Below are positions 6,066 to 54,973 of a stretch of 64,000 bases of DNA, one piece after another. Location of the stretch: NCBI RefSeq assembly GCF_027946175.1, contig NZ_AP026671.1:1736001-1800000 (forward strand). Direction: 5' to 3'. Both the position numbers and the translations under genes were made by a program. The DNA comes from Nitratiruptor tergarcus DSM 16512 (GTDB lineage: Bacteria; Campylobacterota; Campylobacteria; Campylobacterales; Nitratiruptoraceae). A model generated the notes under the pieces. That model searched no databases and was not told where the DNA came from. It was given only the letters and a program-made list of their open reading frames with translations. Numbering within the stretch: position 1 is the stretch's first letter; each line of letters starts with the position of its first letter.

Positions 6066-7151
6066 TTATATACGTATCTCTTTGATGATTTCAAACTGCC
6101 TATGCAGGATATATTCGGCAAGAAAGTTTTCAAATTCTACATCTAAACTGTATTGTATACCCAATCTTTTCGCTTCCTCGTCGAGGTAGCGAATCTCCCC
6201 TTCTATTACAATTTTTTTATTCTCTAATGCAAACTGGAGAGTAACGCTGTCCCGTTTATTACATGAAGAAATATTACTACAGATAATACCTGCTCCTCCT
6301 ATGGAGATATCTTGAATGACCCCACTGCATTGGCATTGAGAAGATGTAATAGTTATAGGAATAGACTCTTTTGGCTGAACACGTACAAATTTTCTTTTTT
6401 CCTGTGGGAGCTCTTCAAAGCAAAAAGAGTCTAAGATAACATAGTCAAAATCTTTGATCTCTTTTATTTTAGTTTTTATTGGCTTGTCTATAAGATCTGT
6501 TTTTATAAAAAGCTCTTTGTCATGATGAAAAATTTTAAAATTGCATTCTGCTATATCGACAACAATTGTATCTTCTTTTAATAGTCTGATTTTGGCTTTG
6601 CAAGATATAGGTACCTGTTTGTAAAAATCGAGTAGAATTATTTGGCTGTTTTGTCTTTTTATTTTTTCTAAAATCGACAAGATTATCTCTTGCTCTTTTT
6701 TATCATTTTCATGTTTTAATGAGCGTAACTCTTGCTGTTGCTCTTCAAAAAATTTTGTATATCCTCTTTGAAAAGCAACAATATAATTATCTATGAGTTG
6801 AATCATTATAGAGACATCAAGGTGATTATGGTGTTCTTTTTGGAGAATAATGCCAATAAAATCTTGCAAAAGTTTAAGAAGAGATTTTGTAAGAGGTGGA
6901 AGGATATTAAATCTATTTTGTGCCAGCATATATGCAAAATTGATAATTTTTTGCTCTCTATCGGATGTACCAGGTGTGAAAAGTATAAGGTAGAGTTTTT
7001 CTGCTATGGTGTTGATTGCTCCAGATGAGAGGGGTTTACTATTTTTTGGTGGCTTTTCTAAAATGGAAGAACGGAAAAATTCAAGAAAGTGCTCTTTATA
7101 TTGTGAAAAAAATGCTTTGTGTTTACTCAAAAAGGAATTCATCGTTTCCAT
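6066..7151 (-). CDS. PilZ domain protein (probable c-di-GMP effector)
   Basis: This is a soluble protein of about 361 residues. The C-terminal domain (about 250-350) carries both PilZ signatures, RxxxR as RKFVR and DxSxxG as DISIGG, which bind cyclic di-GMP. The first 250 residues are mostly helical with a central coiled-coil-like stretch and match no family I recognise. I chose ATG 7151 because TTAGGA lies properly in front of it; an in-frame TTG at 7181 has no such site. Two GGDEF/EAL proteins in the window could supply or remove its ligand. The output is unknown; motility or adhesion would be a guess. Confidence 0.8.
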   Translation of the reverse strand: METMNSFLSKHKAFFSQYKEHFLEFFRSSILEKPPKNSKPLSSGAINTIAEKLYLILFTPGTSDREQKIINFAYMLAQNRFNILPPLTKSLLKLLQDFIGIILQKEHHNHLDVSIMIQLIDNYIVAFQRGYTKFFEEQQQELRSLKHENDKKEQEIILSILEKIKRQNSQIILLDFYKQVPISCKAKIRLLKEDTIVVDIAECNFKIFHHDKELFIKTDLIDKPIKTKIKEIKDFDYVILDSFCFEELPQEKRKFVRVQPKESIPITITSSQCQCSGVIQDISIGGAGIICSNISSCNKRDSVTLQFALENKKIVIEGEIRYLDEEAKRLGIQYSLDVEFENFLAEYILHRQFEIIKEIRI

Positions 7152-7221
7152 GTTTATTCCTAAATTGTAATTATTAATCAAACTATAGTAATATTACCAC
7201 AAAAAAGGAGAGGGGGGGATA

Positions 7222-22098: not shown

Positions 22099-22539
22099 AT
22101 GAAAAGAAGTGCTGGTATTCTTCCTTATAGGATAAAAAATGGAGTTGTAGAGGTGTACCTTGGTCACTTTGGAGGACCTTTTTGGAAAAATAAAGAGCGC
22201 TCTTGGGGAATTATTAAAGGTGAGGTAAATCCAGGAGAGAGTGATTTGGATGCAGCGAAGAGAGAATTTTTTGAAGAGACGGGAAAAGAGATTGCAGGAG
22301 AGTTTATAGATTTGGGTGAAGCAAAAACCTCAAATAAAATCTTGCATATTTTTGCCGTGCAAAAAGATCTTGATACACATATAAGATCCAATCTGGTTAC
22401 AATGGAGTATAAGGGAAGAGTATTGAAATTTCCCGAAATTGATCAAGCTACATGGATGGATATAGAAGAAGCAAAGAAAAAAATTGTCAAATCTCAAGAG
22501 ATCTTCTTGCAAAGACTCCTTACTACTGTAAGTGCTTAG
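22099..22539 (+). CDS. NUDIX hydrolase
   Basis: This 146-residue protein holds a full Nudix box: GEVNPGESDLDAAKREFFEE followed by TGKEI (G-x5-E-x7-REUXEEXGU). The start region SAGILPYRIKNGVVEVYLG and the GGPFW segment resemble the diadenosine-polyphosphate or small-molecule phosphohydrolase branch. It hydrolyses nucleoside diphosphate-X compounds with Mg2+; the substrate is not clear. It is transcribed away from the K+ cluster, and its last 17 bases overlap the convergent GGDEF/EAL gene. Confidence 0.85.
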   Translation: MKRSAGILPYRIKNGVVEVYLGHFGGPFWKNKERSWGIIKGEVNPGESDLDAAKREFFEETGKEIAGEFIDLGEAKTSNKILHIFAVQKDLDTHIRSNLVTMEYKGRVLKFPEIDQATWMDIEEAKKKIVKSQEIFLQRLLTTVSA

Positions 22540-24406
22540 ATGGCTTTCCTAGATAAAAACCTTGTCCATATTGGATATTGAGGCGTGAGACGGTTTGCAG
22601 TATCTTTTCGTTTTCTATAAATTCTGCAACAACTTTTATATTAATTGCTTGTGCAAATGAGGTTATTGATTTAACCATAAGATATGAGACTTTTGATTTT
22701 TCAATCTCTTTAATGAGTGTTCCATCGATTTTGAGAATATCTATAGGAAGATATTTGAAAATTTCAAAATTGGAATAGCCACTTCCAAAATCATCAATTG
22801 CAATTTTGATTCCATACTCTTTAAGTTTTTGTAGTCTCTTTTTAAGGTCTTCATGCTCCTCATATGTTGGGAGAGCCTCATTTTCGAGAAGTTCAATGAC
22901 TAAAAAATTTGCAAGCTCTCGATTTTTTTCAATCTCTTGCAATATCATCTCATACACAACATTGTCTGTGATGTCAGAAAAATTGAGGTTAATGCTCAGT
23001 GGTACTTTATAAGTTTGAATAGTATCGAACGTTTGGCGTAGTACCTCTTTTGTCAAAGAGTTGTAAAGTGTTGTATAAGCGATATTTTCTAAAAATGCTC
23101 CAGGATAGATCACATTTCCTTCTCTATCTTTGAGTCTTACAAGTACTTCGTAGCGCACTGGCTGCATAGAGTTTATATCGTATATAGGTTGGAGTTCTAT
23201 AAAGAGCCGTCTATTATCTATGGCATCTTTTATGATATCAACCTCTCTTGTAGTTTTTGTTTTAGTAAGAGTGTAATCGGTGTTATAGCAGATTTTGTTT
23301 CTTCCTGTCCTTTTGGCTTCATACAAAAACTCATCAGCTTTTTTAATTGCATCCTTAATTGACTTGAACTTTTCAGGATGCAAAATTATACCTATAGAGA
23401 CAGTAACCTTTAAAGAGTGTTCTTCGTAGATAAAGGCGGTAGTATAAAATGTTGTACGGATTCTTTCGGCTATTTGGATAATGTTTTCTTCTTTGCCATT
23501 TCTTTTGATAAAAATGATAAACTCTTCACCCCCATAGCGAAAAATGAGATCATGGTTGCGCAAAATTGAGTGGAGTGTTTTGTAAACATTTTTTAGTACA
23601 AAATCTCCTGCTTTATGGCCATAATTGTCATTTATCTTTTTGAAATGATCAATATCGAGCATTAAAATTGCATACTCTTGAGGATTGATTTCATAGAGAA
23701 ATTTATGGAGATAGTTTCTATTGTAGGCTCCTGTGAGCGGATCAGTCAATGCGCTTTTTTTTGTATGTAAATAGAGCCATCCTTGATAAGCTAAAAGAGC
23801 TAAAAGAAGAAATATTGCAAAAAAGAGATATGCAAAAACCTTTTTGAGAGGCGAGATGATAGTAGAGATGGTTGAAGGAAGTTCATTTGTAAAATCTATA
23901 GCGATGATTCCTTGTACGCTTCCATGCAAAACAATTGGATATAAGTAAGTGATATAGAGTATATCCGAATCTTGATGTGAAAAATAGAGAGCTTGTTTGC
24001 TCTTATATGCTCTATTCCATATTTTGCTATTTACATCGAGTTTTTGATTAAATTCCCCTTTATCTTCCAAACTGCCATCGAGCAGATACCTAAAATGTCC
24101 ATGTTTGTCTCTGTAGAGGATATAGACGAATTTATGAGGAGGAGCAGTTGTGAGTTCAAGTGCATCTTGGAGATAGTCTCTTAGTTGTGGATTGCTCTTG
24201 AGTTCAGTGTAGAGATTCTCTTTGCAATATTTTTTGATAAATCTTTCTATATGGTGTGCTACGGCATCTACATGTGATAAAAACATTCTGTTGAGATTAT
24301 TTTGGAGACGATTTTCTACTTCATAAGTGGAGATATAGAGTATGCTTATCATAACTCCTATAACGACAATTATTCCAATAAGCAGTTTATTAAGTGTTTT
24401 CATCAC
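22523..24406 (-). CDS. Membrane GGDEF-EAL protein with periplasmic sensor domain
   Basis: This 627-residue protein has a membrane helix (about 7-27), a periplasmic region (about 30-188), a second helix (about 190-212), a GGDEF domain with an intact GGEEF active site at 292-296 and an RxxD product-inhibition site at 283-286, and an EAL domain in which EAL reads EVL (420-422) while the Asn, Glu, DDFGSGYS, Lys and Gln positions are kept. It may therefore both make and break c-di-GMP. It overlaps the upstream gene by four bases and ends an operon TonB receptor / periplasmic protein / GGDEF-EAL, which suggests that an extracellular or periplasmic ligand sets its activity. Confidence 0.9.
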   Translation of the reverse strand: MMKTLNKLLIGIIVVIGVMISILYISTYEVENRLQNNLNRMFLSHVDAVAHHIERFIKKYCKENLYTELKSNPQLRDYLQDALELTTAPPHKFVYILYRDKHGHFRYLLDGSLEDKGEFNQKLDVNSKIWNRAYKSKQALYFSHQDSDILYITYLYPIVLHGSVQGIIAIDFTNELPSTISTIISPLKKVFAYLFFAIFLLLALLAYQGWLYLHTKKSALTDPLTGAYNRNYLHKFLYEINPQEYAILMLDIDHFKKINDNYGHKAGDFVLKNVYKTLHSILRNHDLIFRYGGEEFIIFIKRNGKEENIIQIAERIRTTFYTTAFIYEEHSLKVTVSIGIILHPEKFKSIKDAIKKADEFLYEAKRTGRNKICYNTDYTLTKTKTTREVDIIKDAIDNRRLFIELQPIYDINSMQPVRYEVLVRLKDREGNVIYPGAFLENIAYTTLYNSLTKEVLRQTFDTIQTYKVPLSINLNFSDITDNVVYEMILQEIEKNRELANFLVIELLENEALPTYEEHEDLKKRLQKLKEYGIKIAIDDFGSGYSNFEIFKYLPIDILKIDGTLIKEIEKSKVSYLMVKSITSFAQAINIKVVAEFIENEKILQTVSRLNIQYGQGFYLGKPSKHLQ

Positions 24407-24831
24407 TCTATACCCTCATCAATATATTTTTGAAATGATGGTGGTAGGGTAAGACGATATCGTGTGAGATTATTTTTGAAAAAGAGAATATTAGGTCTTC
24501 CTTTTTGCCAAAAAAATCCACCAATCGCCCAGTTTCTATACTTTTTAAGCAGAGGATAATTGCGAACAAAGAGGATCTTTTTTCGCAAATTTGGCGAATG
24601 GAGTGGAAGAGGTTTTTTAAGAAAGATTATATCTGCCTTTTCCGGTTTTGTAGTATACAATACATTTTGGATGGCAGTAAAAAGTTCTTTGTCACTATCA
24701 CTCCAGACCAAAACGATATGTTTATGAGGGAAGAGAGAGTGAATGATTGTTTTGTATATCTCTCTTTCAATATCTTGTGTATTTGCAAATAGAGAAAAAG
24801 TGAAAAAGAAAAAAATACTAAGCCGCTTCAA
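24403..24831 (-). CDS. Small periplasmic protein, possible YfiR-like sensor
   Basis: This 142-residue protein has a signal peptide (MKRLSIFFFFTFSLFA). The mature part has alternating strands and helices and a conserved-looking C-terminal block NWAIGGFFWQKGRPNILFFK followed by LPPSFQKYID. The shape, a small periplasmic Rossmann-like protein beside a membrane diguanylate cyclase, recalls YfiR-type regulators, but I cannot confirm homology. Both gene ends overlap neighbours by four bases (ATGA), so it is produced in step with the TonB receptor upstream and the GGDEF-EAL protein downstream. It could relay ligand state between them. Confidence 0.6.
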   Translation of the reverse strand: MKRLSIFFFFTFSLFANTQDIEREIYKTIIHSLFPHKHIVLVWSDSDKELFTAIQNVLYTTKPEKADIIFLKKPLPLHSPNLRKKILFVRNYPLLKKYRNWAIGGFFWQKGRPNILFFKNNLTRYRLTLPPSFQKYIDEGIE

Positions 24832-26675
24832 AATGTGTACTCCATGTTCAATAAAATTTTTCTATCTGTAGTAGGATAGGCAGTATTGATTTTTCTATAG
24901 GCTTGCTTAAAACCTTTGCCAAAAAGATTCTCTCCTCGTAAACCAATGGAGAGATCGTTATTAATGCGATATTTTATCGCTACTGTATAATCTAATGAAT
25001 CGGTTACAGATGTTCCAAAGTATGTATAAGAGTTTTTATAGAGCAATTCATTATAGATATCAATATTATCAAAGCTGTTGAAAGCTTGGAGGTTGATGTG
25101 TATATCTGGAGAAAACTTTTTTTGTGAGTTGCGCCCTTTGATAATGTAGAGAGTCACTCTATTTTTCGGATCAAATTGATACTGTGCTTTTGCTTCGATG
25201 AAATCAAAGTAAATTTTGTTTGGAATATTGTAGTAGCCTTTTTGCGGTGAATAAGAAGTCATATTTTTTGCATTACGCGTGCCGTATTTAAGGCCAAAAG
25301 AAAAATTCTCTTTTTTATAGAGGGCACCAATAATAAAAAGATTGATGCAAGAGGGTTTAAGGTGCGGATTGGTAACAAGTGGTATATTATTGTCAGAGTA
25401 GAGAGAAAAGAATTGTGGTTCTAACATAGTTTTTGTGTAGAACGTTTTGAATTCCCACTCTTTGCTCTTTTTGATAAATCCTGCACGTACCATCATATTA
25501 GTATGAGATGGAATCTCTTTTTGATATTCATACCAGTCGTTTTTGGCTGAAAGAATAAAAAGTGTCTCTTTATCGATAGAGTAACTCTCTTCAAGATAAA
25601 GTGTGGCAAGACCAAGCCTATTTGTAGCATATGTGTGAATAGTATCGTATGTTCCTCGTTCTTTATACTTTTTGATTTTATAAAATCCTCCAAGTAAAAG
25701 CGAGTGTTTACCCTCATCTATATGTTTTTTGAAATTCAAAGAGAGAATATCGTCAGTAAATCTTCTATAATAGATATCTACAATTCCTTGTGAAGTATAA
25801 ACACCATTGGCATCTTTATAGAGTCTCTTATAATCGAGCCTATCAAATGCAAAGCTCCAAGATATACCATAGATATTTTTATCTAATTTTAAATAGGTGT
25901 GTCTTGCATCTAATCCGCCGCCAAGAGGCTTTTTGCTACGCCCATATCCCAAAAAAGGATCTCTATGTGGCTCATAATGGGAAAACTCTACTTGCAGATC
26001 ATTTTTTTTGAAATTGAGATAAACCATTTTGTCATCTCCATCACGAGAGAGGAGATAGTTGCCGTTGTGATAATGTTTTGTTTTAAAGGATGTCCCATGA
26101 ATGTATCCAAACAAAGAGCTTTTGTTATCAAAAAGCTCTGCTATATAGCTGTCAAATCCTTTTGAGCCCCTTGAGTCAGCAATCAAACGAATCTTTTTCC
26201 CAAGTTCTCTTTGGGCTAGTTTGGTATAGACTTTGATGATAATAAGTCCGGTTTCGTCACCAAATTCGATAGAAGAAGATCCTTTATATACCTCTATGTG
26301 ATCTACATATTCCAAAGGCATCTGTCCCCAAATGAGTAATGCACTTCCAAAAGATGCACTTGTAACATCATGATCATTGATATAGAGTCTTGCTATATTG
26401 ATAGGAGAAAATTTTGTAGATACAGCAGAGAAGAGATTAAGATTATTTGGTGTGAGTGTGTAGTTGATACCAGGAACAGTTTGAAGTATATCTTTGAGAG
26501 TGTAGCTTTGCATCTTTTGGAGATCCTCGCGGGTAAAGACGTAAACAAAACCGGCTGAATCTCTTTTCGTTATTTTTGAGAGTTCAGAAGCTTCTTTATA
26601 TTTTTGGAGTAAAAGATCTATATTTGCTCCATACAGATATGCAAGAAAAAAAGATAGAAAAGCTACTCCTCTCAT
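24828..26675 (-). CDS. TonB-dependent outer-membrane receptor
   Basis: This 615-residue protein has a signal peptide (MRGVAFLSFFLAYLYG), a plug domain (from about residue 38: REDLQKMQSYTLKDILQTVP, then GINY) and a long series of barrel strands ending in the aromatic terminus MEYTF. A barrel of roughly 480 residues fits 22 strands but is on the short side. The plug resembles cobalamin/haem/siderophore-type receptors; no ligand can be named. No ABC importer or TonB gene is next to it. Instead it is translationally coupled to a small periplasmic protein and a GGDEF-EAL protein, which points to sensing rather than simple uptake. Confidence 0.85.
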   Translation of the reverse strand: MRGVAFLSFFLAYLYGANIDLLLQKYKEASELSKITKRDSAGFVYVFTREDLQKMQSYTLKDILQTVPGINYTLTPNNLNLFSAVSTKFSPINIARLYINDHDVTSASFGSALLIWGQMPLEYVDHIEVYKGSSSIEFGDETGLIIIKVYTKLAQRELGKKIRLIADSRGSKGFDSYIAELFDNKSSLFGYIHGTSFKTKHYHNGNYLLSRDGDDKMVYLNFKKNDLQVEFSHYEPHRDPFLGYGRSKKPLGGGLDARHTYLKLDKNIYGISWSFAFDRLDYKRLYKDANGVYTSQGIVDIYYRRFTDDILSLNFKKHIDEGKHSLLLGGFYKIKKYKERGTYDTIHTYATNRLGLATLYLEESYSIDKETLFILSAKNDWYEYQKEIPSHTNMMVRAGFIKKSKEWEFKTFYTKTMLEPQFFSLYSDNNIPLVTNPHLKPSCINLFIIGALYKKENFSFGLKYGTRNAKNMTSYSPQKGYYNIPNKIYFDFIEAKAQYQFDPKNRVTLYIIKGRNSQKKFSPDIHINLQAFNSFDNIDIYNELLYKNSYTYFGTSVTDSLDYTVAIKYRINNDLSIGLRGENLFGKGFKQAYRKINTAYPTTDRKILLNMEYTF

Positions 26676-26725: not shown

Positions 26726-27949
26726 TTAAGGTTTAAGAAAACTGATAATGAAGAGGTTTTGCCCTTTTTGGTGGTGGTAATGGAGTGTAAATCCATGCAT
26801 TTTTAAAATATTGCTTACAAGATAGAGTCCCAGTCCAAAGCCACTTTTTTTGCCCTCTTTGCTAAATGGCTCTAAAAAATAGGAAAGATCTTTTGAAAGA
26901 GCTGGGGCGTTGTTGATAATGGTAAGGGAATCTTGGTCAACAATGATTTTTGCTTTGTGATCAGTGGAGTACTTAATAGCGTTATCGATGAGGTTTTTGA
27001 CTGCTATGGAGAGGAGTTTATAGTCTGCTTTAATAGTGGGATCACTTTTTATTTGAATCTCAATATCCTTTTTATCAAACATACCGATATTAATTGCTTC
27101 TTGCACAATATCAGAGAGTTTGATGGGTTCAAGATTTGGTTTGATTTTTGCATTGACCGCTTCAATGGCTGCAAGCTCATTAATGAGAGAGTTGAGCTTT
27201 TCAAAAATATGGATGAGGCGCTGCTTTTGTTTGGGGTCTTCCACCATTTCAGCTTGGATTCTGCCTTTTGTCACAGGGGTTTTGAGCTCATGCATGATGT
27301 TGCGCAACAAAAGCTTGCGAGAGTTTTGAATATTTTTGAGTGAATCTGCTGCATTTTGCAGAGCATTTGCCACTTCGTTAATCTCTTTAAACCCTTTAAT
27401 ATTGAGATTGAGTTCTAGATTGCCTGCAGAGAACTTCTCTATCTCTTTGGTGATCTTTTTGAGGGGGCGAAGCTTGATGAGAATGAGAATATATATTAGC
27501 AGCAAAAAGCCCATCATAATGACAAAAATAGTGGTGTAGATTAGTCTTAGATGTTCAATACCCCGAGAGATATCTTTGAGTAAAAGCGTATTGCCATAAC
27601 TTTGGATCCAGATATAGTAAGTGCTGTTCTTTTTGAGGATAATAATTTCTCCTATAGGATAGCGGGTTCGTTTGATGATTTGAGAGGTTTTAAGTATGGT
27701 GAGAATCTCTTTTGGATGTGTGATGGGTAAGAGATCGAGTTTTTGCAAATCATCAATGAGACTATTGGGATTTTGGATGGTGCCCAACTGCCAAATGAGA
27801 GATTTTGAGATAAAGTCAAACCGCTTTTGCATCTGATTTTTATCATTTGCTTTGATATATTTCAAAGAGAGCATATAGGATGCTCCAATACCTATGAAGG
27901 CAAGGAGAAATATGAGGGTAATCCAAAGAAAAATTGAGGTTTTTTTCAT
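26726..27949 (-). CDS. Sensor histidine kinase (ArsS/CprS-type)
   Basis: This 407-residue protein has two membrane helices (about 8-28 and 137-158) around a periplasmic domain of about 110 residues, a HAMP-like linker (LRPLKKITKEIEKF), the phospho-acceptor box MHELKTPVTKGRI and the ATP-binding N and G boxes (LIDNAIKYS, GFGLGLYLV). It matches the ArsS-type kinases of Campylobacterota. It overlaps its response regulator by four bases, and the upstream htrA gene gives the same order as htrA-cprR-cprS of Campylobacter jejuni, so envelope-stress sensing is a reasonable inference. Confidence 0.85.
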   Translation of the reverse strand: MKKTSIFLWITLIFLLAFIGIGASYMLSLKYIKANDKNQMQKRFDFISKSLIWQLGTIQNPNSLIDDLQKLDLLPITHPKEILTILKTSQIIKRTRYPIGEIIILKKNSTYYIWIQSYGNTLLLKDISRGIEHLRLIYTTIFVIMMGFLLLIYILILIKLRPLKKITKEIEKFSAGNLELNLNIKGFKEINEVANALQNAADSLKNIQNSRKLLLRNIMHELKTPVTKGRIQAEMVEDPKQKQRLIHIFEKLNSLINELAAIEAVNAKIKPNLEPIKLSDIVQEAINIGMFDKKDIEIQIKSDPTIKADYKLLSIAVKNLIDNAIKYSTDHKAKIIVDQDSLTIINNAPALSKDLSYFLEPFSKEGKKSGFGLGLYLVSNILKMHGFTLHYHHQKGQNLFIISFLKP

Positions 27950-28605
27950 GGAACGAATTTATAGCCCACGCCTCTTACTGAGATAATGTAGCGGGGATTT
28001 TTGGGATCTTCCCCAAGTTTGTGGCGTATACGGCTAATGATCACATCGATAGTCTTTTCAGAGGCATTTTCGCTTAAGTTTTCACAGGTATAGAGAAGCT
28101 CTTCTCGCTCAATTGGCTGATTTGGATGCTCTATGAGATAGGCGAGTACTTCAAATTCTGCTGGAGTGAGTTGGAGAGGTTTATTTTTAAAATGGATTTC
28201 ACGTCTATTTTTATAGATTTTAAGATCTGGCTCTTTGGGTGGTTTGCTGCGTCGTCTCGTAATTGCTTTGAGTCTCGCTTCTAGCTCTTTTGGATCGTAA
28301 GGTTTTGGCAAATAGTCATCTGCCCCAAGTTCTAAGCCTATAACTTTGTCGCTAAGATCACTGCGTGCACTGCTTATGATAATGGGCAGATCGCTAAATT
28401 CACGAATCTTTTTGAGAATCTCTAAACCATCCATGCCAGGGAGTGTCAAATCCAAAATCAAAGCATCATAATCTTTTGCTATCCGCAGCGCTGAGAGGGC
28501 AATAAATGGATCTTCATAATTTTCTACATCTATGCCATATTTTTTGAGATATTCACTCAATATCTCAGCTAATTCGATATCATCTTCTATCATTGCTACT
28601 TTCAT
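27946..28605 (-). CDS. OmpR-family response regulator (CprR-like)
   Basis: The protein has a receiver domain (MKVAMIEDD acid pocket, phospho-Asp in ALILDLTLPG, Lys in PKPYDP) and a C-terminal winged helix (TPAEFEVLAYL to ISVRGVGYKF). ATG 28605 is preferred because AAAAGGCG precedes it; a GTG at 28626 would add seven residues and lies within a CCCC/GGGG hairpin (28621-28633). That hairpin, between htrA and this gene, could reduce read-through. The regulator is coupled to the kinase by a four-base overlap and probably controls htrA and envelope genes, by analogy with CprRS. Confidence 0.85.
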   Translation of the reverse strand: MKVAMIEDDIELAEILSEYLKKYGIDVENYEDPFIALSALRIAKDYDALILDLTLPGMDGLEILKKIREFSDLPIIISSARSDLSDKVIGLELGADDYLPKPYDPKELEARLKAITRRRSKPPKEPDLKIYKNRREIHFKNKPLQLTPAEFEVLAYLIEHPNQPIEREELLYTCENLSENASEKTIDVIISRIRHKLGEDPKNPRYIISVRGVGYKFVP

Positions 28606-28640
28606 ATAGCGCCTTTTTATCCCCACAGCGGGGGAAAGAT

Positions 28641-30044
28641 TTATTTGAGTACCAAAATAAGTGGTATCCCTTGACGTTTAATATAAACTCGTATTGGAGT
28701 TTTATATTTTTTTAGTGCTTTTTTTAGATCTTCTACGTTTGTAATCTCTACATCTTCAATACCAATTATAACATCACCAGGTTTTATTCCAGCTTTTTCT
28801 GCTGCACTGTCTGGTTTGACATTGGTAACGAAGACTCCCTTAACATTTTCAGGAATATTGTACATGCGGCGAAGATTGTCATCAAGAGTTTGTACTTCAA
28901 GTCCTTTGAGACTCTGAGTAGCTTCAGTCTCGCCTCCTGGACGTTTACCTAGTTTTACTTTTGCAGTATGTACGTTTTTATTGCGCTCATATTTGATGGC
29001 GATCTCTTTTCCTGGAGGGTAAGATCCTATGATAGTTTTAAGCTCATTAGCATCTTCAATCTTTTTACCCTCAACTTCGATTATCAAATCTCCTCTTTTA
29101 AGCCCAGCTTTGTCTGCTGCACTATCTTTTGTTACATCTACGATGACCGCTCCATATTTATGTTTATACACATCTTTAAGATCACCTTTGAGATCTTCAA
29201 TTATCACACCAAGGTATCCACGCTCGATTTTTCCTTTCTCTACAAGCTTTTTGACAACCTCTTTCATCATGTTGGATGGAATTGCAAAACCTATACCATT
29301 ATTGCCGCCGCTTCTAGTAATGATGGCACTGTTGATACCGATAAGTGCACCTCTACTATCAACTAAAGCTCCTCCACTGTTACCAGGATTAATCGCAGCA
29401 TCAGTCTGAATGAAGTTTTCGTAAGTGTTGATACCAACATTATTTCTGTTTGTTGCACTTATGATTCCTTGAGTGATAGTCTCACCAATACCAAAAGGGT
29501 TACCAATAGCAAAAACGAGATCACCTGGTTTTATTTTTGAAGAGTCCGCGATTTTAATAGCTTTGAGACCTTTTTTGTCTATTTTAATGACAGCTAAATC
29601 TGTAAGAGCGTCTTTTCCTATAACTTTTGCTTTGTACTCTTTATCATCTCCAGGGAGTGTGACAGTGATTTCATCAGCATTTTTAATGACGTGGTTGTTT
29701 GTGACAATATAGCCATCATTACTTATAATTACACCACTTCCCAAGCTTCTTTCTACTCTGTTTCTTGGGAGACGATCGCGAAACATAGGGCCAAAAAACT
29801 GCTTGAAAAAAGGATCGTTAAAAAATGGCATATTTTGCATATTTGGCATTTTGATCTTTTTTTTGGTAGAGATATTGACAACACTTTCCTTTGCATCCTT
29901 GATAGCATCATAAAAAGAGAGTACAGTATTTGTTCCGCTATTTGGCATAACACGTGTAAACTCTTTTGGTGCTTCATTGAAATTGATTGTAGCTGCACTG
30001 AGCATAAGCGCAGCGATTGTGGAAATCACAACTGCTTTTTTCAT
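28641..30044 (-). CDS. htrA: HtrA/DegQ-family periplasmic serine protease
   Basis: This 467-residue protein has a signal peptide. The catalytic triad is visible: His in VTNNHVIKNAD, Asp in TDLAVIKID, Ser in GNSGGALVD. Two PDZ domains follow (starting near IERGYLGVII and near LKGLEVQTL). It degrades and refolds misfolded periplasmic proteins. It is transcribed divergently from the inositol monophosphatase gene and is followed by a two-component system in the Campylobacter htrA-cprRS order. Confidence 0.92.
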   Translation of the reverse strand: MKKAVVISTIAALMLSAATINFNEAPKEFTRVMPNSGTNTVLSFYDAIKDAKESVVNISTKKKIKMPNMQNMPFFNDPFFKQFFGPMFRDRLPRNRVERSLGSGVIISNDGYIVTNNHVIKNADEITVTLPGDDKEYKAKVIGKDALTDLAVIKIDKKGLKAIKIADSSKIKPGDLVFAIGNPFGIGETITQGIISATNRNNVGINTYENFIQTDAAINPGNSGGALVDSRGALIGINSAIITRSGGNNGIGFAIPSNMMKEVVKKLVEKGKIERGYLGVIIEDLKGDLKDVYKHKYGAVIVDVTKDSAADKAGLKRGDLIIEVEGKKIEDANELKTIIGSYPPGKEIAIKYERNKNVHTAKVKLGKRPGGETEATQSLKGLEVQTLDDNLRRMYNIPENVKGVFVTNVKPDSAAEKAGIKPGDVIIGIEDVEITNVEDLKKALKKYKTPIRVYIKRQGIPLILVLK

Positions 30045-53170: not shown

Positions 53171-54973
53171 ATGATAGCTTTACTCTCACAAATGCTTAGT
53201 GAAACGTTAGAAGATGAGGTAGAGATAGTTTCCAAAAAAGAGTTTGCCTATCCAAAAGAGAGAAAGTTTTTTGCAATAGATAGTGAATATGTATTTATCT
53301 ATAATAAACACCTCATGCCAAAAAAACTGCATATTATCAAAACACTCCTTGCTCAATTTATTCGTTTGTATCAACAAAACGAGGATGAATTAAAAAAATT
53401 AAAAATTATCCATAAAGAGGTAGATAATATTCTTCATTCTAATGAACTTTTTTTTGAAAAAAAGGGTGATATTGCCTCTTTTTTCTCTTTTTTGCATAAA
53501 GAGGATATTCAATTTGTTTTAATTGAAAACGGTAAGGTGCTATTTAATAATGGGATTGATACATTTACTATTGAAACGACTCTTAAAAAGCTAAAAAAAG
53601 CAGCTATTGTCTCTTTGCCTATAGGAGAAGGAGCACTTTTTGCTACGAATAAAGGATTTTATACTATTATATTATTAAAAAAGAGAGGAAGTATTGATCC
53701 ATTTATTAAAAAGCTTATGAATTCGCGTCTTTTGTGGATAAATGCTCTTTATGAAGCAAGAGTATCTTATGAGGTTGATAGACTTACAGGCCTTTATACA
53801 CGGAGCAAGTTTCTTACAGATCTTCCAATGCACAAAAAGAGATCATTTATCTTCATCAACATTAAAAATTTCAAAGTTATTAATCAGCTATATAATGATG
53901 CTATTGGTGATAGAGTTTTACAAGAGCTTGCAGAGAGATTCCGTCAAGGTTTTGGGCATGAGCATATATATAGGATCTATGGAGATAGATTTGCAATAAT
54001 TTGTGAAGAAAAAGAACTGCAAAATTTTATAGATATATTGTGGGGTATAGAAACTAAAGCATTTTTAATATATAACGATGAAACAAAAGAGTATATTGAA
54101 CCACAGCTTAAATTTGGGGTATTTGTTTCTCGAGAATATCACGATGAAATGTTGGAATTAGCCAATATTGCTTTTAAGCAGTGTCAAAAAGCTCTTTGTT
54201 ACTATAAAGACGATATAAAACCAATGCTACAAGAAGAGATAGAGTATACATATCTTTTAACACGGGCATTGGATGAGGATGGTATTGAGCCATATTTTCA
54301 AAAAGTTATTGATAAAAAAAATGGTACAGTTCACTATTATGAAGTTCTCATGCGCATTGTTATAGATGAAAAAGTGTACCCGCCTGTAAAATTTTTGGAT
54401 ATTGCAAAGAAAAAGGGGCTTTATAAAAAACTTAGTACTGTAATGATAGAAAAAGCGATTGCAGCTGCTAAAAAACTTCAACAGAGAGTTTCGATAAACA
54501 TAGATATTTTTGATATTTTGGAAAAAGATTTTATGGCAAATATTCAAAAACTTTTGCAAAAATATCAAATAGCTTCGCATATGCTACAATTTGAAATTTT
54601 AGAAACAGAAGATATATATCAATATAGCAGTGAAGTTAAAGCTTTTATTAGTACTATGCGGTCCCTTGGTATAGGTGTGGCTTTAGATGATTTTGGAAAA
54701 GGCTATTCCAATTTCGCGATTATTAAAGATTTTGATCTTGATTTACTCAAAATAGATATGAGTATTGTTCGCCATATTGGGAAGAGTGAAGAGTCTTTTT
54801 TGATTCTCAAATCAATTGCAGAGTTTGCCTCTTTGTTACATATTGAGACTACTGCAGAAGGTGTAGGGAGCGAAGAGATCTATCAAAAGGTATTACAGAC
54901 TCCTATTAACTATCTGCAAGGTTTCTTTATCGATAAGCCAAAACCTCTTGAAGAGATCCTTATACAACAATAA
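53171..54973 (+). CDS. Cytoplasmic GGDEF-EAL protein with degenerate GGDEF
   Basis: This 600-residue protein has no membrane helix. The first 190 residues are a novel or PAS/GAF-like sensor region. The GGDEF domain (about 200-330) has IYGDRF where GGDEF is required, so it should not make c-di-GMP. The EAL domain (about 360-600) reads EVL but keeps the catalytic Asn (INIDIFD), Glu (EILETED), DDFGKGYS, Lys (LLKID) and AEG positions, so phosphodiesterase activity is plausible. The start codon immediately follows the dehydrogenase-like gene; the end overlaps the convergent murB by 14 bases. Confidence 0.88.
   Translation: MIALLSQMLSETLEDEVEIVSKKEFAYPKERKFFAIDSEYVFIYNKHLMPKKLHIIKTLLAQFIRLYQQNEDELKKLKIIHKEVDNILHSNELFFEKKGDIASFFSFLHKEDIQFVLIENGKVLFNNGIDTFTIETTLKKLKKAAIVSLPIGEGALFATNKGFYTIILLKKRGSIDPFIKKLMNSRLLWINALYEARVSYEVDRLTGLYTRSKFLTDLPMHKKRSFIFINIKNFKVINQLYNDAIGDRVLQELAERFRQGFGHEHIYRIYGDRFAIICEEKELQNFIDILWGIETKAFLIYNDETKEYIEPQLKFGVFVSREYHDEMLELANIAFKQCQKALCYYKDDIKPMLQEEIEYTYLLTRALDEDGIEPYFQKVIDKKNGTVHYYEVLMRIVIDEKVYPPVKFLDIAKKKGLYKKLSTVMIEKAIAAAKKLQQRVSINIDIFDILEKDFMANIQKLLQKYQIASHMLQFEILETEDIYQYSSEVKAFISTMRSLGIGVALDDFGKGYSNFAIIKDFDLDLLKIDMSIVRHIGKSEESFLILKSIAEFASLLHIETTAEGVGSEEIYQKVLQTPINYLQGFFIDKPKPLEEILIQQ

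Follow-up and report, generated by a model that had tools for sequence, protein, structure and literature searches.

A conserved gene module of a TonB-type receptor, a small protein of predicted YfiR fold and a GGDEF-EAL enzyme in Nitratiruptor tergarcus, putatively linking the outer membrane to cyclic di-GMP

In a stretch of 64,000 nucleotides (nt) of Nitratiruptor tergarcus DSM 16512 (contig NZ_AP026671.1, positions 1,736,001 to 1,800,000; hereafter the window), three adjoining genes encode a TonB-type outer-membrane receptor, a small protein of predicted YfiR fold and an inner-membrane GGDEF-EAL enzyme (Table 1). These three genes form a conserved module. Since they travel together in two phyla, the line of receptor, small protein and enzyme very probably passes an outside signal to the internal second messenger cyclic dimeric guanosine monophosphate (c-di-GMP), the function being putative. 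A previous interpretation, made from the letters of the window alone (the sequence-only reading), had placed the three genes on the minus strand and proposed such a line through the envelope. The coordinates of the open reading frames and the Pfam domains agree with the placement, and the proposal is supported by the presence of the triplet in two phyla, by the YfiR-like predicted fold, and by sets of Pfam-recognised YfiR genes (DUF4154, PF13689) with the same partners.

Conservation and layout of the module

Of 100 genomes surrounding that of the window, 43 carry the small protein, with 55 loci in all. Phylum-wide, the counts are 55 of 298 genomes for Campylobacterota and 43 of 136 for Aquificota, the phylum of the Persephonella locus; the carriers include Nitratiruptor, Sulfurimonas, Sulfurospirillum, Hydrogenimonas, Sulfuricurvum, a Nautiliales bacterium, Persephonella and Aquifex. 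None was found in plasmids. The collected family has 117 distinct members at 136 loci, and in most of these loci the gene order is receptor, small protein, enzyme. The full triplet is present in most of 20 Aquificota neighbourhoods, and its order is the same in the two phyla at different genomic sites. The sequence-only reading was to be abandoned if the triplet occurred in no other genome; it occurs in many. Profile searches run independently over the above 100 genomes placed a small protein beside 50 of the 53 strong receptor matches and beside 50 of the 52 strong sensor-domain matches; 50 of the 55 small proteins adjoined a sensor. The unpaired receptor and sensor matches come mostly from fragmented assemblies.

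Over the 136 loci, the modal spacing is exactly -4 at both junctions (63 loci upstream and 70 downstream), and therefore the overlaps are not due to chance. For the window itself, two 4-base overlaps had been described. The one between the receptor and the small protein holds, given the TTG start on which it depends; relatives have an ATG start at the equivalent place, and a 4-nt overlap with the receptor gene is most frequent among them. The one between the small protein and the enzyme holds with the GTG start, but not with the adjacent ATG. A Shine-Dalgarno-like stretch lies just 5' of both internal starts (GGAG and GAGGG). From this layout, translational coupling of the three genes is plausible, although overlaps alone are insufficient to establish it. 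The promoter and terminator scans returned counts close to the shuffled expectation and were uninformative.

Table 1. Genes and gene junctions of the module (window positions; aa, amino acids)
Feature	Position	Strand	Details
TonB-plug outer-membrane receptor	24828..26675	-	615 aa; Plug PF07715 E=1.9e-10
Small protein, predicted YfiR fold	24403..24831	-	TTG start, 142 aa
GGDEF-EAL enzyme	22523..24406	-	626 aa from ATG at 24403; 627 from GTG at 24406
Receptor/small protein stop/start overlap	24828..24831	-	4 nt (TGA inside TTGA); from the sequence
Small protein/enzyme overlap	24403..24406	-	4 nt with GTG start, 1 nt with ATG at 24403; from the sequence

Another regularity is that the sensor domain is kept while the output differs. 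At the 117 distinct loci, the receptor is accompanied by a GGDEF-EAL protein in 70 cases, by a GGDEF protein in 14 and by a histidine kinase in 7. In three cases (L064, L065 and L076), the kinase gene is succeeded by one for a receiver-PAS-EAL protein, so that the output of these loci may nonetheless be c-di-GMP. With a varying output behind one sensor, the module should be amenable to domain swaps. At one locus (L185:7844-10735), a 963-aa kinase with NMT1 and SBP_bac_3 periplasmic domains lies directly 3' of the triplet kinase.

The three proteins and their known counterparts

The window receptor has a signal peptide (by eye) and, with its plug domain and terminal aromatic residue, the features of TonB-dependent receptors; the C-terminal Phe is present in all 78 aligned family receptors. 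An N-terminal signature, LS-x2-TK-x-ESAG, precedes the plug and is conserved in the family receptors, as are the motifs DHIEIY and YTK. The barrel domain PF00593 was undetected in the window receptor, and a barrel is suggested by the length of the protein; no STN domain was found in it by hmmscan. The genome of the window contains two TonB_C proteins and four plug receptors, two of which sit in triplets of receptor, YfiR-type protein and enzyme. A peptide-pattern search of genome contigs for the receptor gave zero relatives. The module resembles the FecA/FpvA-type transducers in that a TonB receptor would signal inward across the envelope. The window receptor differs from them by the missing STN domain and by having no sigma/anti-sigma pair adjacent, its presumed partners being a separate soluble protein and a c-di-GMP enzyme. 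In five loci (L052, L059, L061 and two more), a predicted membrane protein of about 120 aa is encoded directly upstream of the receptor. Tandem copies also occur (G093:C21:2136-4561 and L193), with two family receptors adjoining each other and a pair of small proteins on a single contig.

The small protein starts with a signal peptide at about residues 1-16 (by eye) and contains no cysteine in the window copy, while many relatives have two. A motif, G-x-F-x-W-x-KGRP, is near-invariant across the family. No Pfam match (hmmscan) and no NCBIfam match was obtained, and PDB sequence searches with the protein and with its profile gave chance matches only. The AlphaFold2 model built from 77 sequences has a predicted local distance difference test score (pLDDT) of 93.6. 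When this model was compared with the PDB by Foldseek, YfiR chains occupied 14 of the top 20 ranks at E values of ~1e-3, with TM-scores of up to 0.67 (query) and 0.58 (target). Judged by the model, the small protein has the YfiR fold, and we read it as a new short YfiR-fold family outside the Pfam and NCBIfam entries.

The enzyme consists of an N-terminal transmembrane helix, a periplasmic single Cache (PDC) domain, a second transmembrane helix, and the GGDEF and EAL domains (Pfam 5e-41 and 3e-54, respectively). The intact GGEEF and RxxD motifs and the EVL variant named in the sequence-only reading are all seen in the sequence, RxxD as RNHD; the remaining EAL catalytic positions look intact by eye. 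EVL is a minor variant in the family, where EAL is usual, and GGEEF is likewise mostly the rule. For the sensor region, the AlphaFold2 model (pLDDT 91.9) matched the PDC domains of WalK, KinD and Tlp3 in Foldseek, and it is thus predicted to be a PDC/Cache domain and not the CHASE8/PAS type of YfiN. The enzyme had no HAMP match, and a PDB search with the sensor profile gave weak chemoreceptor matches only.

The closest comparison is the YfiBNR system of Pseudomonas aeruginosa (PMC2837407, PMC3375315, PMC4887326, PMC4655355). Both share a three-gene logic from outer membrane through periplasm to inner membrane, with a periplasmic protein of YfiR fold (predicted in our case) and an inner-membrane enzyme that carries a periplasmic sensor and GGDEF. 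YfiR has two conserved cysteine pairs (PMC4655355), whereas the window protein has none, and it is also shorter and invisible to PF13689. The outer-membrane partner is a TonB plug receptor in the window, but an OmpA/Pal-like lipoprotein in the case of YfiB. The enzymes differ as well: the window sensor is a Cache domain without HAMP match and YfiN is CHASE8/PAS-HAMP-GGDEF, while the window enzyme adds EAL and its relatives may have a kinase output.

In another system, NspS-MbaA, the gene of a soluble periplasmic protein adjoins that of a membrane GGDEF-EAL enzyme, and the periplasmic binding protein presents a ligand to the receptor. NspS has two lobes and no TonB receptor dedicated to it, whereas the small protein of the window is predicted to be single-lobe and YfiR-like. 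No link between a TonB receptor, YfiR and c-di-GMP was found in the open-access part of the literature, as judged from titles and abstracts, which is weak evidence of novelty.

The Pfam-recognised DUF4154 genes of Campylobacterota adjoin TonB receptors together with GGDEF, GGDEF-EAL, hybrid kinase or receiver-SpoIIE genes. One such set exists in the window's own genome (L115, G000:C1:829000-839000) and comprises a TonB receptor of 678 aa, a DUF4154-like protein of 182 aa and a HAMP-GGDEF-EAL protein of 650 aa, with a TonB_C gene adjoining on the opposite strand. Its DUF4154 match is under the curated cut-off, and the profile of its group matches canonical DUF4154 without signal peptides at 97%. 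An alphaproteobacterial plasmid of Indioceanicola carries a TonB receptor, a DUF4154 protein (1.2e-44) and a CHASE8 hybrid kinase with 4-nt overlaps. Like the window module, these sets place a TonB receptor and a YfiR protein next to a gene for GGDEF, GGDEF-EAL or a hybrid kinase, often with short overlaps. However, their receptors are without the LS-x2-TK-x-ESAG signature, their YfiR proteins are longer and for the most part recognised by Pfam, and their sensors are of other types (CHASE8 where identified). At L120:1819-6973, a DUF4154 gene is flanked by a receiver-SpoIIE protein on one side and a TonB receptor on the other, which is another output type. DUF4154 matches were also seen within open frames of 642-881 aa (G025:C72, G095:C156, G096:C1:1178646 and G054:C16), possibly YfiR-domain fusions.

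A proposed relay and its competitors

We consider it probable that the module is dedicated to signalling through the envelope, with the state of the receptor acting on the small YfiR-fold protein, this on the Cache domain, and the Cache domain on the enzyme. The TonB-type receptor in the outer membrane would bind a ligand, and its periplasmic face, consisting of the plug and the conserved N-terminal segment, would govern whether the small protein is available or in which state it is. This protein would in turn make contact with the Cache domain that the inner-membrane enzyme has in the periplasm, and the contact would shift the balance of synthesis and breakdown and thereby set the c-di-GMP level. 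Judging from YfiR-YfiN, the relay probably locks the enzyme in a single state, and its capture or release by the receptor would end this. In this relay model we infer the contacts, the direction of control, the ligand and the TonB dependence. In its favour are the conserved co-occurrence with its order and overlaps, the sensor retained behind differing outputs, the predicted folds of small protein and sensor, the alignment of the motif region with the partner-binding hairpin of YfiR (below), the DUF4154 sets with like partners, and the linked divergence: the distance correlations are higher between receptor and sensor (0.87), receptor and small protein (0.84), and small protein and sensor (0.79) than between small protein and GGDEF (0.73).

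Several results count against this relay. The sequence-only reading had suggested comparing the 142-aa protein with YfiR/DUF4154 profiles, and PF13689 misses it in hmmscan, while the PF13689 search of the genomes returned other genes. With signal peptides included, hhalign matched the small-protein profile to DUF4154 at 94%; we have withdrawn this match as evidence of homology as it came largely from the signal peptides. Without them the values fall to 1-5% (P 0.008-0.04), which is modestly above the 40 column-shuffled controls (at most 0.8%), and sequence homology between the small protein and YfiR is not established. Since the PF13689 test is negative, the connection to YfiR comes from the fold and the gene context and not from detectable sequence. 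The proposed YfiBNR-like logic, with a TonB receptor in the place of the lipoprotein, is supported by these two. In one Aquificota lineage (L249-L251 and L253), the receptor is accompanied by a degenerate small protein (WLDGR) and by no adjacent enzyme. Finally, the distance correlations still contain shared species history.

Another point on the opposing side is that single-lobe substrate-binding proteins equal YfiR in Foldseek E-value for the small-protein model. The R. marinus proteins of this kind, and TrpX-type domains at similar E-values, suit the main rival, in which the receptor would import a ligand and the single-lobe small protein would bind it and present it to the Cache domain; this would still be signalling, with the receptor as a transporter and not a switch. 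Weak binding of L-Trp and vitamin B6 is known for YfiR itself (PMC4887326), and small ligands are the usual partners of Cache domains. Nevertheless, we hold ligand delivery of this kind to be unlikely. The predicted fold is one lobe with no clamp, and many YfiR chains exceed the binding proteins in TM-score. The most conserved patch is the surface hairpin motif, which in the weak hhalign alignment, whose register is sensible, falls on the C-terminal, partner-binding hairpin of YfiR carrying F151, E163 and I169 (our own mapping on a weak alignment). These residues are reported at the YfiB/YfiN interface (PMC4887326; see also PMC4655355). The sequence-only reading would also have to yield if the small protein were the substrate-binding protein of an importer elsewhere, and it survives this comparison with a model that is YfiR-like and not two-lobed, although single-lobe binding proteins match too.

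The idea that the receptor and the small protein feed such an inner-membrane importer, with the enzyme only co-expressed and sensing independently, appears improbable to us. Nutrient import is the usual role of TonB receptors, and YfiR-type folds are similar to the substrate-binding domains of ATP-binding cassette (ABC) systems. However, no ABC importer stands beside the window triplet, as the sequence-only reading had noted, and none is recurrent in the neighbourhoods examined, while sensors stand beside the small protein (50 of 52), small proteins beside a sensor (50 of 55), and the outputs vary among signalling enzymes only. Mere neighbourhood, with overlaps from genome compaction or inheritance and no common function, would fit the compact Campylobacterota genomes, where overlaps are common, but is highly improbable given the order kept in two phyla at different sites and the near-exclusive co-occurrence.

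Returning to the relay, we are evenly divided on the broader view that signalling TonB receptors of this type form a class apart, which would use a minimal YfiR-fold relay instead of STN and an anti-sigma factor to control Cache-domain c-di-GMP enzymes or kinases, and which would be widespread in Campylobacterota and Aquificota. If the relay is true, bacteria common in vents and sediments would gain a path leading straight from a receptor in the outer membrane to c-di-GMP, and the role of a TonB receptor family without neighbouring importers would be explained. It would also suggest a function for an unannotated family present in about one fifth of the sampled Campylobacterota genomes and about one third of the sampled Aquificota genomes.

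Other genes of the window

A PilZ protein in the window had been named as a possible reader of the c-di-GMP signal. Its open reading frame is located at 6066-7181 rather than 6066-7151, and we rejected it as the reader: it is one of three PilZ proteins in the genome, none of them linked to the operon, and nothing connects it to the three genes. An HtrA-type protease, a response regulator and a histidine kinase are encoded just upstream of the triplet (26726-30044), separated by a 50-nt gap. They resemble the htrA-cprRS neighbourhood of Campylobacter, and they were rejected as part of the module, their recurrence beside the triplet being mainly within the same genus. A further GGDEF-EAL protein with a weaker GGDEF match (53 bits) is encoded at 53171-54973. 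At its other end, the operon meets a convergent NUDIX gene (22099-22539, plus strand), which overlaps the enzyme gene by 17 bases (22523-22539).

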